Shown here: one piece after another, positions 13,721 through 63,548 of the stretch
Layout: each line of letters starts with the position of its first letter
How positions within the stretch are numbered: position 1 is the first letter of the stretch
NCBI GenBank assembly: GCA_020721005.1
Contig: DYNP01000002.1
Coordinates: 191,598 to 255,597, forward strand
DNA: 64,000 nt
Direction of reading: 5' to 3'
Source of the DNA: Thiomargarita sp.
GTDB taxonomy: Bacteria; Pseudomonadota; Gammaproteobacteria; Beggiatoales; Beggiatoaceae
The notes under the pieces: model-generated
The model's database searches: none
The model's input: the letters and a program-made list of their open reading frames with translations, nothing else
Told to the model about the DNA's origin: nothing
Position numbers and translations under genes: made by a program

Positions 13721-14515
13721 ATGCTTAAACACTGGTTATTATTCAACGTAAGTTTTTGGCTATTACTGAGTTGTGCTACTTCTCCATTGGGTCGTTCCCA
13801 ATTGGTACTTATGCCAGAAGAACAATTGAGTCTTATGGGGGCTCAAGCATTTGAGAATGTCAAACAAAAAACACCATTGGAAAACAGTCCTCAGGTAAAT
13901 GGTTACATCAATTGTATTGCCAGTTCAGTGATCAAAGTCAGTGGCAGTGCTACCCGCAGCTGGGAAGTGGCGGTTTTTCGAGAAGACACAGCCAACGCTT
14001 TTGCCTTACCTGGAGGGAAAGTTGGAGTATACACAGGCATGTTGAACGTGGCTAAAAACCAGCACCAGTTGGCTACGGTTATCAGTCATGAGGTTGCTCA
14101 TGTTTTGGCTGACCACGGTAATGAGAGAGTTTCTCAAGAATTTGCACTTGAGCAAGGTATGGTATTAGCGCAATCTGCATTGGGGAGTCCGCAAACTGAA
14201 AGAGGTCAATTTGTGATGGGCTTGTTGGGAGTAGGTATTCAATTTGGAATATTACTGCCTTATAGCCGTACACAAGAAAGTGAAGCCGATTTGCTGGGCT
14301 TGAGATTGATGGCGAATGCGGGATTTGATCCCAGAGAAAGTGTACAACTGTGGCAGAATATGAGTCAGGGAAGTAATAATGCAGAAACACCAGAATTTAT
14401 GTCAACTCATCCTTCGCACACCACTCGTATCACAGATTTAAATCGAGAAATGAATCAGGCTATGACGCTTTACCAGCAAGCTTTGAACAAAAGTGTCTCC
14501 CCTCAATGTGGTTGA
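13721..14515 (+). CDS. M48 family metalloprotease, lipoprotein
   Basis: 264 residues. The N-terminal signal ends in a lipobox-like LLLSCATS, so it is probably lipid-anchored in the envelope. The zinc site is H123-E-V-A-H127 with the third ligand Glu188 in ESEADLLG. Resembles the Oma1/LoiP type of periplasmic quality-control protease. Last gene of the plus-strand group. Confidence 0.92.
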   Translation: MLKHWLLFNVSFWLLLSCATSPLGRSQLVLMPEEQLSLMGAQAFENVKQKTPLENSPQVNGYINCIASSVIKVSGSATRSWEVAVFREDTANAFALPGGKVGVYTGMLNVAKNQHQLATVISHEVAHVLADHGNERVSQEFALEQGMVLAQSALGSPQTERGQFVMGLLGVGIQFGILLPYSRTQESEADLLGLRLMANAGFDPRESVQLWQNMSQGSNNAETPEFMSTHPSHTTRITDLNREMNQAMTLYQQALNKSVSPQCG

Positions 14516-14649
14516 TGGAGTTTAATCGTCCATCTTATGAGGAGTATAAACTGAAGTTTATACTTCTCTTCTTTAGGCTTGAGTTGTACAACTTATTACC
14601 TTATTTAAGGTGGACATCAACTTTTTTTATTGATTTGGGAGTTAAATTC

Positions 14650-14678
14650 TTGACAACCTGCTTTTCAGTGATTATTCT
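14650..14678 (+). promoter_or_regulatory. Sigma-70 promoter of candidate small RNA
   Basis: TTGACA at 14650-14655, a 17-base spacer, and TATTCT at 14673-14678. Close to the sigma-70 consensus. It lies downstream of the M48 gene and points at the structured segment that ends in a terminator at 14864. Confidence 0.65.
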
Positions 14679-14684
14679 TATGTT

Positions 14685-14864
14685 GCAGTGCACAAGTTTT
14701 CTGAATATCCCCAGTTTACTGCCCCCATTTTTCCAAATGGAACGATTTGGAAAACTGAGTGATAACTCGTCAGTTGTGGGATCCAATCTCCTCCATCATC
14801 CTCCTTTGGTGGTTTCAGCGCTTTTGAAGTCCAATGCTATTGGAATTCTGAAGCGCTTTTTTTT
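14685..14864 (+). ncRNA. Candidate trans-acting small RNA
   Basis: About 180 bases bounded by a near-consensus promoter and a strong intrinsic terminator. It contains a perfect 10-bp hairpin at 14742-14767 (TTTTCCAAAT / ATTTGGAAAA, loop GGAACG). An unpaired pyrimidine stretch rich in CTCC/CCTCC at 14788-14807 is complementary to Shine-Dalgarno sequences. This modular shape is typical of base-pairing regulatory RNAs. I could not match it to 6S, 4.5S, tmRNA or RNase P RNA. A 140-codon open frame crosses it but lacks gene-like features. Confidence 0.5.
14817..14864 (+). terminator. Intrinsic terminator of the candidate small RNA
   Basis: Arms AGCGCTTTTGAAGTCCAAT and ATTGGAATTCTGAAGCGCT with a 3-base loop pair over about 19 positions with two mismatches. 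They are followed directly by eight T residues. Confidence 0.85.
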
Positions 14865-14960
14865 GTCCTTCATTGTAATCAGGAGGGGGCAAATTTGTCA
14901 ACTTATTATTCCTATTGGTTTAAAATAATTGTTTTTCAGATTAATTTCTTGTTTCTATAT

Positions 14961-15247
14961 TAGACTTCTTGCAAAAGTAAATGATGCGATACGAAAAAAT
15001 AAAAGGGGAATCTCCGTTGGAGTGGAGGCTTTAGCCGGTGGTGGAGTGGAGGCTTTAGCCGATCAGCCGTAGGCCTCATCCCACATACACAAATTGCAAG
15101 AGCCTACCGCTGGCCGGCTAAAGCCTCCACTCCAAGGACTCCAGTCTAAGGACCTACCGCTGGCCGGCTAAAGCCTCCACTCCAACGTGTCTTAACTGAT
15201 GCGCAACTCTTATTTTTTCATGATCGCATACTTTTGCAAGAGCTCTA
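14961..15247. mobile_element. MITE-like element carrying R1 repeats, copy 1
   Basis: 287 bp framed by TA. Terminal inverted repeats: left begins GACTTCTTGCAAAAGTA, right (reverse strand) begins GAGCTCTTGCAAAAGTA, both followed by TGCGAT and an A-rich AAAAAATAA block. The interior is a palindromic set of R1 units (GGAGTGGAGGCTTTAGCC and its complement). No transposase frame. Copies at 41070 and 45055 share these ends; the one at 63238-63548 has only the right end. Looks like a non-autonomous element mobilised by a transposase elsewhere; the family cannot be named from this window. Confidence 0.7.
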
Positions 15248-15292
15248 TTTTAACTTAATTCATATCAAATCACTTGTGCAACGGCTACTATT

Positions 15293-17329
15293 ATGTCAAA
15301 CCCATTATTGACCATGAGCGGTTTACCGCCTTTTTCCCAACTTAAACCAGAGCATATCGTTCCAGCCATTACGCAAATTTTACAGGATAATCGTCACCAT
15401 ATTACTCAGTTGGTAATTTATGCTCAGCCTTACAGTTGGGATAATTTTGTGCAGCAGTTGAATGAATTAGATGATCGATTGCGGCGGGTGTGGTCAATTG
15501 TTGGTCATTTGCAAGGAGTTGCTGATTCAGCGGAATTACGAGAGGCTTATAAGCAGTGTTTGCCTTTACTTTCCGCTTATCGCAGTGAACTGGGACATCA
15601 CCAAGGTTTGTATCTTGCTTATCAGAGCATTGCCAATCATCCTTCTTTTCAAGGACTTGAGCGGGCTCAACAGACAGTGATTGAGCATGAATTGCGGGAT
15701 TTTCGCTTGTCAGGCATTCATCTCAATCCTGAGCAGCAACAACGTTATACTCAAATTCAACAGAGTCTTTCTGAATTGAGCACTCAATATCATGAGCAAT
15801 TGTTGGATGCAACTCAGGGCTGGAGCAAATCTATTACTGAAGAGTCTCAATTGAGTGGCTTGCCAGAATCAGCGAAGAATTTGGCCAAACAAAGAGCGGA
15901 AGAACGAGAGTTGCCAGGTTGGTTGTTGACTTTGGATCTGCCCAGTTATTTGCCTACAATGAATTATTTGGATGATCGGAATTTGCGTCAGGAAATATAC
16001 ACTGCCTATACAACTCGTGCCTCTGATCAGGGTCCTCAAGCTGGGCAGTGGGACAATGGCCCTGTGATGGAGAAGATCTTGGCGTTGCGCCATGAATTGG
16101 CTGTGTTACTTGGTTTTAAGAATTATGCGGAATATTCTCTCAGCACTAAAATGGCTGAATCTATTGAGCAAGTGGAAGATTTTCTGTTGGATTTGGCTCA
16201 ACGTTCTCGTCATATGGCCCTGCAGGATTTGGCTGAATTGCGCGATTTTGCTCGGGACCATTGTGGAATGGAGCACTTGGAACTGTGGGATGTTCCCTAC
16301 TATTCAGAAAAATTGCGTCTACACCGCTATGCTTTGTCTCAAGAAGATTTGCGGCCTTATTTTCCCCTGTCCAAAGTGCTCAACGGCTTGTTTAAAATCA
16401 TCGAATTATTGTTCAACATGCACATTCGAGAACGAGTGGGAGTGGATGTTTGGCACCCAGAAGTTCAATTTTTTGAAGTGGTTGATGAATCGGGACAGGT
16501 GCGGGGGCAATTTTACATAGATTTGTTTGCGCGCCAGGGAAAACGCAGTGGGGCTTGGATGGATGATTGTATCAGTCGACATCGTACAGAACGAGGGCTA
16601 CAGCTTCCAGTGGCTTATTTGGTGTGTAATTTTACGCCACCTGTAGGGGATGTGCCTTGTTTGTTGACCCATCAGGAAGTGACAACTTTATTTCATGAGT
16701 TTGGGCATGGTCTGCATCATGTATTAACACAAGTTGATTATGCACCGGTGGCTGGGACTTATGGCGTGGCTTGGGATGCAGTGGAATTGCCCAGTCAATT
16801 TTTGGAAAGTTGGGCTTGGGAAAAGGCGGCTTTGGATTTGTTTGCGGGTCATTATCAAACTGGGGCACCATTGCCAGAAAATTTGTATCAAAAAATGGTA
16901 GCGGCGAAGAATTTCCAAGCCGGATTGTTCATGGTTCGCCAATTAGAGTTTGCTTTGTTTGACTTACGGTTACATGCTCATTATCACACCGATCTGCAGA
17001 TCCAAACTGTGTTGGATGAAGTTCGAGCACAAGTGGCAGTGCTTATTCCCCCGCGATTTAATCGTTTTCAACACAGTTTTTCGCATATTTTTTCAGGTGG
17101 CTATGCAGCGGGTTATTACAGTTATAAATGGGCTGAAGTGTTGTCTACCGATGCTTTTTCAAAATTTGAGGAACGCGGAATTTTTGATCGGCAAACCGGG
17201 TTGGAATTTTTGCATCATATTTTAGAAAAGGGAGGCTCAGAAGATCCTATGACATTGTTTGTGCGATTCCGCGGGCGCCCTCCAGAAATTGAGGCCTTGT
17301 TGAGGAAGTCTGGGATTCTCCCTGAATAA
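15293..17329 (+). CDS. prlC: Oligopeptidase A (M3 family)
   Basis: 678 residues, near E. coli OpdA/PrlC (680). Cytoplasmic thimet-type metallopeptidase that degrades signal peptides and short peptides. The zinc motif is H468-E-F-G-H472 in LFHEFGHGLHH, with further glutamates in ESWAWE. Starts MSNPLLTMSGLPPF as in relatives. Flanked on both sides by R1 repeats and convergent with secA. Confidence 0.96.
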   Translation: MSNPLLTMSGLPPFSQLKPEHIVPAITQILQDNRHHITQLVIYAQPYSWDNFVQQLNELDDRLRRVWSIVGHLQGVADSAELREAYKQCLPLLSAYRSELGHHQGLYLAYQSIANHPSFQGLERAQQTVIEHELRDFRLSGIHLNPEQQQRYTQIQQSLSELSTQYHEQLLDATQGWSKSITEESQLSGLPESAKNLAKQRAEERELPGWLLTLDLPSYLPTMNYLDDRNLRQEIYTAYTTRASDQGPQAGQWDNGPVMEKILALRHELAVLLGFKNYAEYSLSTKMAESIEQVEDFLLDLAQRSRHMALQDLAELRDFARDHCGMEHLELWDVPYYSEKLRLHRYALSQEDLRPYFPLSKVLNGLFKIIELLFNMHIRERVGVDVWHPEVQFFEVVDESGQVRGQFYIDLFARQGKRSGAWMDDCISRHRTERGLQLPVAYLVCNFTPPVGDVPCLLTHQEVTTLFHEFGHGLHHVLTQVDYAPVAGTYGVAWDAVELPSQFLESWAWEKAALDLFAGHYQTGAPLPENLYQKMVAAKNFQAGLFMVRQLEFALFDLRLHAHYHTDLQIQTVLDEVRAQVAVLIPPRFNRFQHSFSHIFSGGYAAGYYSYKWAEVLSTDAFSKFEERGIFDRQTGLEFLHHILEKGGSEDPMTLFVRFRGRPPEIEALLRKSGILPE

Positions 17330-17696
17330 AGCAGTTACCCATCCTACCATTACCTGCCATTCAGTTAAAGTACGTTGGAGTGGAGGCTTTAGCCGGTCAG
17401 CGGTAGACGCTTTGCAATTTATGTGTGGGGGGCGATGCCTACGGCTGGCCGGCTAAAGCCTCCACTCCAACAGAGAATTCCCTATGTCTACCACTGGCCG
17501 GCTAAAGCCTCCACTCCAACAGAGAATTCCCTATGTCTACCACTGGCCGGCTAAAGCCTCCACTTCAACGGAGAATTCCCTACGTCTACCGCTGGCCGGC
17601 TAAAGCCTCCATTCCAACAAAGAATTCACTCCAACAGAGATTTTCTTCACTGAATAACAGGGTAGGAATTGGGTGGCCATCATTTGATGACATGCT
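17330..17696. repeat. R1 repeat array between prlC and secA
   Basis: From about 17373, one forward R1 unit, then four reverse units with a period of about 50 bp sharing the linker AGAGAATTCCCTATGTCTAC. The forward and first reverse units form a long potential hairpin around a TTTGCAATTTATGTGTGGGG-like centre. No terminal element ends are seen here, unlike the copies at 14961 and 41070. No gene is supported. The array may separate the convergent prlC and secA transcripts. Confidence 0.8.
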
Positions 17697-27559: not shown

Positions 27560-27894
27560 CCTTGACCGGCTAAAGCCTCCACTCCAGCTTAATTGTGGGG
27601 TTCGGGCCTTGGACCTTGACCGGCTAAAGCCTCCACTCCAGCTTAATTGTGGGGTTCGGGCCTTGGACCTTGACCGGCTAAAGCCTCCACTCCAACTTAA
27701 TTGTGGGGTTTGGACCTTGACCGGCTAAAGCCTCTACTCCAGCTTAATTGTGGGGTTCAGTCCTTGGACCTTGACCGGCTAAAGCCTCCACTCCAACTTA
27801 ATTGTGGGGTTTGGACCTTGACCGGCTAAAGCCTCTACTCCAGCTTAATTGTGGGGTTTGGACCTTGACCGGCTAAAGCCTCCACTCCAGCTTA
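27560..27894. repeat. Seven-copy tandem R1 array
   Basis: Seven direct units beginning CCTTGACCGGCTAAAGCC, each with the linker CTTAATTGTGGGGTT, of 54 or 47 bp depending on a 7-base block. The last unit joins base-for-base to a copy of the rsmD start at 27895. The stretch 27473-27559 holds an R5-like TAGGATGGGCTTCCGGTCAG motif. No gene is seen. Confidence 0.88.
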
Positions 27895-41069: not shown

Positions 41070-41359
41070 AGACCTCTTGCAAAAGTAAATGATGAGATAC
41101 GAAAAAATAAAAGGAAAATTCTTGTTGGAGTAGAGGCTTTAGCCGGTCAGCCGCAGGCATCACCTCACATACACAAATTGCAAGGGCCTACCGCTGGCCG
41201 GCTAAAGCCTCCACTCCAACCCACCGGCTAAAGCCTCCATTCCAACCCACCGGCTAAAGCTTCCACTCCAACCTACCCGCCAAAGCCTCCACTCCAAGTT
41301 ATCTTAACTGAGAGGCAATTCTCATTTTTTGATGATCGCATACTTTTGCAAGAAGTCTA
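41070..41359. mobile_element. MITE-like element carrying R1 repeats, copy 2
   Basis: 290 bp, TA on both edges. Left end GACCTCTTGCAAAAGTA and right end (reverse) GACTTCTTGCAAAAGTA match copy 1. The interior has one forward R1 unit, then four reverse units. Inserted three bases after the znuA terminator run. Confidence 0.72.
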
Positions 41360-45441: not shown

Positions 45442-46011
45442 TTACTCAACTGGAGGTGGACTGGCAGCCTCATCGGCAGCTTTGTTGGCTTCTTCAACTG
45501 AGGAATCTGCTTTAGCTGCACTACTTTCTGCGGTATCCGCTGCTTTATGGGCAGCAGATACTGCGGCGTCTGCAGCAGCCTTGACAGTATCTGCAGCTTT
45601 GACAGCCGCATCTGCAGCAGCTTTAGCCGCATCTGCTTCTACAGCCTCTGCAGCCGCCACTTCAGGTGCAACTGCGCCTACTGCAGCTGCATCTGCAGTG
45701 GCATGAGCTTCTCCTACTTCCTTATTGGCAGCAGCTGCAGTGGCATTAGCCGCTTCTGCTGTGGCATTGGCTGCATCGATTGCTATATTAGCTGCAGCCG
45801 CCGCTGCTGCTGCAGTATCTGCAGTTTGATGGGCAGTGTCGACTGCTTGATCCGCGGATTTTGCGGTTTCTTCAGCCTTGACTTGAGTCACCACTTCAGG
45901 TGTCGCTGCTGGAGCAGCTTCTGTGGCCTCTTGAGCAAGCAAAGGGTTAACCGTTAACATGACCGCAGTTCCAAAACCTAACAACAACATTTTTTTCAGC
46001 ATTTTCGTCAT
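45442..46011 (-). CDS. Exported Ala-rich helical repeat protein
   Basis: 189 residues from the ATG at 46011, backed by a strong AAAAGGAGG site; the frame runs open to 46071. Signal peptide about 1-26 ending NPLLA. The mature part is over 40% Ala with Asp, Lys, Thr and Val in short repeats such as AADTVKAAADAAVSAAHKAA, implying one long amphipathic helix or coiled coil, and a Pro-rich end (ASPPPVE). No lipobox cysteine and no C-terminal lysine as in Lpp. Own promoter and strong terminator suggest good expression. Function unknown; a periplasmic spacer or surface fibre is a guess. Confidence 0.8.
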   Translation of the reverse strand: MTKMLKKMLLLGFGTAVMLTVNPLLAQEATEAAPAATPEVVTQVKAEETAKSADQAVDTAHQTADTAAAAAAAANIAIDAANATAEAANATAAAANKEVGEAHATADAAAVGAVAPEVAAAEAVEADAAKAAADAAVKAADTVKAAADAAVSAAHKAADTAESSAAKADSSVEEANKAADEAASPPPVE

Positions 46012-63237: not shown

Positions 63238-63548
63238 GTAGGTTGGAGTAGAGGCTTTAGCCGGTGGGTTGGAGTGGAGGCTTTAGCCGGCGGGTTGGAG
63301 TGGAGGCTTCAGCCGGTGGGTTGGAGTCGAGGCTTCAGCCGGCTAGCAATCGGCCCTTGTCATTTGTGTATATGGGGTGATGCTACGGCTAACCGGCTAA
63401 AGCCTCCACTCCAACGTAAGCATCGACTCCGGCTAAAGCCTCTACTCCAACGTAAGCATCGACTCCGGCTAAAGCCTCCACTCCAACGTATCTCAATTGA
63501 GGTGCAACTCTCATTTTTTTATGATCGCATACTTTTGCAAGAGATCTA
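63238..63548. mobile_element. R1 array with one MITE end, copy 4
   Basis: Four forward R1 units, a TGTCATTTGTGTATATGGGG centre, then three reverse units and a right end (reverse) GATCTCTTGCAAAAGTA matching copies 1-3. The matching left end is missing, so the element is truncated or rearranged. The 113-codon open frame across it is repeat translation. Confidence 0.7.

Follow-up and report, generated by a model that had tools for sequence, protein, structure and literature searches.

The 180-nucleotide transcript predicted at positions 14685–14864 of a 64,000-nucleotide stretch of Thiomargarita sp. DNA (the window) is, with a probability that we put at about three in four, a trans-acting anti-Shine–Dalgarno (anti-SD) small RNA of the RF02278 kind that is repressed by PhaR, derepressed when PHB accumulates, and blocks mRNAs with strong SD sequences, perhaps including that of phaB. 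For the interval 14650–14864 as a whole, a small RNA bearing anti-SD stretches is the best-supported reading. At the sequence level, support comes from a match to an RNA family model, the anatomy of the element, its promoter and PhaR box (Table 1), the presence of phaR and hfq genes in the genome, and an association between box and phaR in the host family; we infer transcription, trimming, PhaR binding, the direction of control, use of Hfq and the targets of this RNA. A preliminary description had placed a candidate small RNA in this interval, with a near-consensus promoter, a perfect 10-bp hairpin, a long terminator hairpin followed by eight T residues and a transcript of about 180 bases. All four elements are present as described or predicted, and the RF02278 match, a covarying terminator stem and promoter-like sites upstream of the RNA in relatives support the gene itself. 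The RNA family, possible trimming to ~80 nt and the PhaR box are features beyond that description.

Table 1. Predicted features of the small-RNA locus, in window coordinates.
Feature	Position	Strand	Basis
Sigma-70-type promoter (TTGACA, 17 nt, TATTCT)	14650–14678 (-35, 14650–14655; -10, 14673–14678)	+	10/12
Putative PhaR box ATGTTGCAGTGCACAAG, overlapping the predicted start (~14685)	14680–14696	.	13/14 scored positions
5' leader of the predicted 180-nt precursor, containing the 10-bp hairpin	14685–14784	+	fold; leader z -2.08
RF02278-like small RNA, possible ~80-nt mature form	14785–14864	+	RF02278, 39.8 bits; model R2, 45.5 bits, E 1.1e-10
Anti-SD site 1, CUCCUCC	14788–14794	+	fold; conserved in the family
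Hairpin 1, CCAUCA/UGGUGG, 6 bp, loop UCCUCCUU = anti-SD site 2	14793–14812	+	fold
Intrinsic terminator (stem 14817–14857; T8 14857–14864)	14817–14864	+	fold, sequence

An Rfam scan of the window at the gathering threshold returned no matches. In a low-threshold scan, the last 80 nucleotides of the predicted transcript matched RF02278 (‘Betaproteobacteria toxic sRNA’) over model positions 1–64 of 64 with an E value of 2.3e-6, at a score below the 50-bit gathering cut-off, and this copy has the anatomy of that family: a 5' C/U-rich stretch, a hairpin with a C/U loop, a terminator hairpin and a T run. RF02278 matches at E<=0.01 were found in 69 of 190 related genomes and exceeded the cut-off in just one, indicating that the Rfam cut-off omits nearly all members in these 190 genomes. 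A covariance search with a model built from 29 sequences, the window included (R1), matched core, hairpin and terminator in 140 of 369 genomes of the class and in 20 of 42 host-family genomes, and the window genome carries a single copy of the RNA by covariance-model search. A second model (R2), built from 21 sequences that include neither the window nor its host family and with the terminator helix as its only structure, independently located the element at 14788–14864. The window copy carries a 3-nt insertion in hairpin 1, which was misaligned in our MAFFT alignment (A1); the sole DNA match among 94 other genomes, in G007, spans 30 identical bases, the three inserted letters among them. Phage or plasmid origin was considered and rejected, there being no exact core in viral contigs; one Gammaproteobacterial member searched for in phages and plasmids gave no match.

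Some relatives carry more than one copy. Tandem copies of the RNA occur at L163 805–1329 (G028), L164 414–964 (G018), L165 and L167; the G028 array consists of five copies at a spacing of ~117 bp, all of them with a terminator of their own, and TGCAnTGCA is seen before the first copy only. Possible degenerate second copies lie near intact ones at L170 1095–1162 (G007; 24.0 bits) and L163 638–688 (G028; 16.5 bits). Weak RF02278-like stretches with CTCC and a terminator lie up to ~1 kb downstream of phaR at L274 1864–1931 (G152), L296 1079–1141 (G364) and L265 2126–2176 (G124); the L296 stretch directly follows a phasin gene (PF09361), and the frame before the L274 stretch has no Pfam match.

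Folding of the predicted transcript is consistent with a structured RNA. None of 200 dinucleotide shuffles was as stable as the 180-nt fold (z -3.56), and none of 200 shuffles was as stable as the fold of the last 82 nt (z -4.98). The terminator stem, which has two symmetric mismatches and in which the first T of the T run is paired, covaries: all 8 counted pairs have changed on both sides, and none of 500 shuffles reaches the whole-structure score. Hairpin 1 is nearly invariant and is kept without double changes in the covariation analysis; across the 29 sequences its helix is paired in 98.6% of cells, with changes on one side only. The C/U-rich segment CTCCTCCATCATCCTCCTTTGGTGG, which spans 14788–14812, had been described as unpaired. 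In the predicted fold, the first five bases of site 1 (CUCCU, 14788–14792) are free and site 2 occupies the loop, but the CC that follows CUCCU is paired at the base of hairpin 1, and the segment is thus mostly, not wholly, unpaired. Within it, CCUCCUUU (14800–14807) has seven bases in the loop and one in the stem; the same letters close the 16S rRNA sequence GGATCACCTCCTTT, which occurs once in the Thiomargarita genome, at the place expected for the 3' end of 16S, beside the 23S gene and two tRNA genes. The RNA therefore offers two stretches that resemble the anti-SD of the ribosome itself. Directly after the terminator T run, beyond the predicted transcript, G[CT]C[CT]G occurs in 44 of 162 loci (GCCTG in 24).

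The transcription start is predicted at ~14685 from a promoter whose -10 element ends 109 nt before the core. Nearer candidates reach just 8/12 and 7/12, and the absence of any promoter of at least 9/12 closer to the core than one that puts the start 180 nt before the end of the T run fits a long precursor of the type described for S17 (see below). By analogy with S17, a ~180-nt precursor is probably trimmed to its 3' ~80 nt. The 190 nt upstream hold a promoter-like site of at least 9/12 at 103 of 129 loci that have an exact core and sufficient upstream sequence; random positions drawn from these loci, unmatched for AT content, would give ~8. In 77 of the 129, the -10 ends 20–49 nt before the core; the ~100-nt leader of the window RNA is longer than most examined. 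Simple scans of the region gave counts near chance (10 promoter-like sites versus 7.0 and 4 terminator-like sites versus 3.2 in shuffles), with the terminator of the RNA absent from the list, and such signals alone are thus insufficient to reveal a gene. Within the leader, the perfect hairpin lies at 14729–14754, with arms TTTTCCAAAT/ATTTGGAAAA and a 6-nt loop; 8 of its pairs form in the minimum-energy fold of the 180-nt transcript and all 10 when the leader is folded alone. A DNA search found no counterpart of the leader sequence in relatives. A promoter-like site (11/12) at 14901–14872 on the minus strand points antisense into the RNA gene; we rejected it as a source of an anti-RNA, as a site of at least 10/12 occurs there in just 3 of 162 loci.

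Two other origins for the element were weighed. An open frame of 140 codons (14506–14928) spans all of it and, if this were a gene, the hairpins would be incidental; conservation of this frame had been named beforehand as an observation that would speak against a small RNA. Yet none of 44 other genomes encodes a homologue (1 of 45, the Thiomargarita genome alone), the frame has no Pfam match, and what is conserved is the core with its covarying stem in 29 sequences, so we rejected the protein-coding reading, which has next to no chance of being correct. The RNA could also be a 3' untranslated region (UTR) product of the mRNA of an M48 peptidase gene, which ends at 14515 on the same strand, rather than the product of its own promoter, and the related-looking element after a phasin gene in L296 would fit such an origin. 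Between the peptidase gene and the RNA, however, lie a terminator-like stem (14539–14568) and then the promoter and box, and TTGAC[AT] stands before the box at a similar distance in 10 other host-family genomes. We regard derivation from the peptidase mRNA as improbable, and a separately transcribed small RNA as the preferred reading.

The putative PhaR box was scored against the published Ralstonia eutropha motif YTKNTGCRNYGCANMAR at 14 positions and is the sole site of at least 13/14 in the window. Upstream regions of the RNA in relatives share TGTTGCAnTGCACAA, which matches published PhaR sites of R. eutropha (PMC12849132), of Sinorhizobium meliloti, for example at exoL (PMC12542648), and of B. 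diazoefficiens (TGCRNYGCASMA; PMC6201568); here and below, statements about published systems refer to the accessible portions of the papers cited. The Thiomargarita genome encodes PhaR (a single L332 protein has both PF07879 and PF05233), and the two marks of a PhaR regulon, a phaR gene and a promoter box, are thus both found by sequence. Elsewhere in this genome, the box separates phaR from a phaB-like gene (adh_short; 13/14) and precedes both a phasin gene, at a distance of 153 nt (14/14), and an acyl-CoA ligase gene (13/14). For comparison, sites of at least 12/14 appear in 11 of 400 intervals of 220 nt from the same genome, and sites of 13/14 in none of the 400. Genome-wide, TTGCAnTGCACAA occurs 6 times exactly and 37 times with at most one mismatch, versus 4 for the reversed pattern. 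Exact copies of TTGCAnTGCACAA also lie before a response-regulator/kinase gene (by Pfam) and, by eye, in an ATP-synthase-like cluster (L201 1501 and L203 1501).

Across the host family, the presence of the box goes with that of phaR. PhaR (PF07879) is encoded in 17 of 42 genomes, the Thiomargarita genome included, and RNA and phaR co-occur: 15 genomes have both, 5 the RNA only, 2 phaR only and 20 neither. Among the RNA-bearing genomes, the 220 nt upstream of the RNA contain a box of at least 12/14 in 14 of the 15 that encode PhaR and in none of the 5 that do not (Fisher 3.9e-4, uncorrected for relatedness); at 13/14 or better, the counts are 11 of 15 and 0 of 5. The downstream flanks, scored as a control, have sites of at least 12/14 in 1 of 15 and 0 of 5, and 1000 column-permuted motifs gave a mean of 0.53 and a maximum of 7 of 15. 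This scoring covered 29 RNA matches in 20 genomes, of which 24 were used in the phaR comparison, with the weak G013c, G030c and G015b, a degenerate G007a copy and G018b, whose upstream sequence is short, left out; the tallies by genome are the same. TTGAC[AT] precedes the box by 25–42 nt in 11 of the 14 box-bearing genomes, and the distance from box to core is 70–139 nt in 13 of them. The exceptions are G026, which has phaR and no box; G002, whose box is 191 nt from the core and is not preceded by TTGAC[AT]; and G007 and G021, which lack TTGAC[AT] at 25–42 nt. At a second G030 locus, box and core are 34 nt apart.

Outside the host family, a box of at least 12/14 was found in 16 of 36 phaR-bearing genomes from 10 families versus 2 of 30 genomes without phaR, and at 13/14 in 7 versus 0. 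The 36 comprise 35 of the 39 genomes that have both RNA and phaR (all except G173, G223, G248 and G264) plus G152, and the 30 are among the best-scoring of 97 RNA-bearing genomes that lack phaR rather than a random draw. Comparing flanks in 36 of 53 phaR-positive and 29 of 30 phaR-negative loci, sites of at least 12/14 lie upstream versus downstream in 14 versus 2 of the former and 2 versus 4 of the latter; at 13/14 or better, the downstream control has one locus of each kind. The two boxes in genomes without phaR are identical sites, in G298 and G393. In seven genomes from four other families (G091, G108, G127, G229, G238, G300 and G333), the box begins with the -35-like letters TTGACG.

These data also bear on whether the window RNA is an RF02278-type anti-SD RNA that operates without PhaR, in which case the box would be a chance palindrome or the site of another factor. 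Such a view draws on the lack of class-wide co-occurrence between RNA and phaR, the latter being present in 43 of 140 genomes with the RNA and in 66 of 229 without it (p 0.73), and on the 20 of 36 phaR-bearing genomes outside the host family that have no box. Against it stand the partition of boxes by phaR in the host family, with its permuted-motif and downstream controls, and the occurrence of the same box at PHB genes of the Thiomargarita genome. We consider a PhaR-free RNA unlikely and favour control through the box.

How might such control operate? The phaP1 gene of R. eutropha has PhaR sites close to its -35 element and around its start, through which PhaR acts as a repressor, and PHB granules draw PhaR off; PhaR also activates phaP3 (PMC12849132). 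By analogy with phaP1, a box over the start site suggests repression that is lifted by PHB. We propose that PhaR bound at the box would keep the small-RNA promoter off until PHB granules form, when PhaR would move to the granules and allow the sigma-70 promoter to produce the ~180-nt precursor and, after trimming, the 3' 80 nt. Together with Hfq, which the genome encodes, the two C/U-rich anti-SD sites could then pair with mRNAs that have strong SD sequences and block their translation, with the mRNA of phaB, the PHB reductase, possibly among those blocked as a form of feedback. Strong SD sequences are scarce in this genome (of 315 start regions sampled, 4.4% contain GGAGG and 10.5% AGGAG), and an anti-SD RNA could therefore be selective. 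The sample took the first ATG as the start and includes a few genes twice, from overlapping stretches. In this model, cells with a full carbon store would make protein more slowly from selected genes.

Candidate targets were ranked by predicted duplex energy among the 315 start regions. The phaB-like gene has AAGGAGGACC before its start and a duplex of -18.0 kcal/mol, in the top 3.8%. A phosphofructokinase gene (L334 3714, minus strand) has a predicted duplex of -19.4. Counting the Thiomargarita genome, GGAGG precedes phaB in 6 of 8 RNA-bearing host-family genomes with a readable start, and in neither of 2 genomes that lack the RNA. Where relatives have GGAGG before phaB, predicted duplex energies vary widely, from -9.9 to -20.8. 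As evidence that phaB is a target, these duplex scores are suggestive only. Genes for phaA and two phasins rank at 22–48%, and the acyl-CoA ligase gene, whose start is uncertain, at 98%. Pairing with the GGAGG before an Ala-rich protein gene had also been proposed, which we take to be the gene that starts at 46011 on the minus strand (189 aa, 39% Ala). Its AAAGGAGGAT is complementary, without mismatch, to the 10 bases AUCCUCCUUU of the RNA, but the predicted energy of -15.3 kcal/mol is not exceptional compared with a 5% quantile of -17.0 for the 315 start regions. A search of the Thiomargarita genome for mRNAs with extended complementarity to the RNA gave, besides the RNA gene, a single site with 3 mismatches, and a target of that kind was rejected.

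Elsewhere in the window, an 18-mer, GGCTAAAGCCTCCACTCC, is present in 37 copies with at most two mismatches, versus 0.02 expected. The copies are clustered, direct and inverted, and partly ~49 bp apart, at 15015–15187, 17374–17630, 27568–27888, 41127–41295, 63245–63484 and other sites. Matches to miRNA families on a palindromic repeat at 15044–15131 were taken as chance.

More broadly, RF02278 RNAs are widespread, and in the consulted portions of the literature little is known of how their expression is controlled; the PhaR box provides a concrete candidate input, namely PHB granules. The RNA family is already known, and control through a PhaR box would be a new regulatory variant of it. A literature search to which subscription papers were mostly closed yielded no description of an RF02278 RNA controlled by PhaR. 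We tentatively extend the model, at odds somewhat short of even, to RF02278-type anti-SD RNAs in PHB-storing Gammaproteobacteria generally, which could form an output arm of PhaR through which stored carbon would brake the translation of strong-SD mRNAs. An equivalent circuit would then have arisen with the seemingly unrelated MmgR in Alphaproteobacteria and, at differing promoter positions, repeatedly in Gammaproteobacteria.

Several known RNAs share parts of this design. The double-hairpin RNAs ncS03, ncS05, ncS27 and ncS62 of Burkholderia cenocepacia resemble the window RNA in having a terminator, two hairpins and C/U-rich segments with complementarity to ribosome-binding sites (RBSs); carbon-metabolism targets are predicted for them, and ncS27 is processed to a short form (PMC5688073, PMC4603805). 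Relative to these RNAs and RF02278, the window copy, besides its insertion and modest score, has a longer terminator. The accessible text of PMC5688073 makes no mention of PhaR, phasin or polyhydroxy, and a common upstream motif is mentioned for the Burkholderia RNAs (Sass 2017). In plasmid loci of Burkholderiaceae, we found a 13/14 box in just 2 of 7 examined (of 11 records), both from Paraburkholderia caribensis; the PhaR box is thus not supported as that common motif, and we rejected this identification.

The S17 RNA of Bordetella pertussis is like the predicted window RNA in its sigma-A promoter, long precursor and anti-RBS sites. It is made as a 190-nt precursor that RNase E cuts to a stable, Hfq-bound 67-nt form whose 5' end is the C/U-rich stretch (PMC11722255). 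The amount of S17 is tied to Bvg mode, unlike the PhaR input proposed here, and the accessible text of that paper does not mention PhaR, PHB, phasin or Gammaproteobacteria. Exponential growth of Escherichia coli is reported to be unimpaired by S17 (PMC11722255), and the RF02278 label ‘toxic’ need not apply to the window RNA. In Neisseria, NmsRA and NmsRB (RF02877) likewise have one anti-SD site between stem-loops 1 and 2 and another in the loop of stem-loop 2; these RNAs occur as tandem copies and repress metabolic mRNAs, and their anti-SD sites have been mutated (PMC5362039). They differ from the window RNA in lacking a PhaR link in the accessible text of that paper and in the weak matches of RF02877 to relatives (12 loci, best E 0.015). 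With no match at E<=10 in 14400–15300, we rejected membership of the NmsR family.

The closest regulatory parallel is found in S. meliloti, where PhaR (AniA) represses mmgR, which encodes an Hfq-dependent small RNA that limits PHB (PMC12542648, PMC8401924), giving a PhaR–small-RNA circuit a precedent. The MmgR family alpha-r8 (RF00519) bears an anti-SD-like 10-mer (PMC12559287). The dyad motif of mmgR lies between the -35 and -10 elements, whereas the box in the window lies over the start. Homology with mmgR was rejected: the RF00519 match is at noise level (13.6 bits versus a cut-off of 41, E 7.3; 17–23 bits in relatives), which points to parallel wiring rather than established common descent. 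If our model is correct, storage status would be broadcast to translation by an anti-SD RNA in Thiomargarita, much as MmgR operates in rhizobia.
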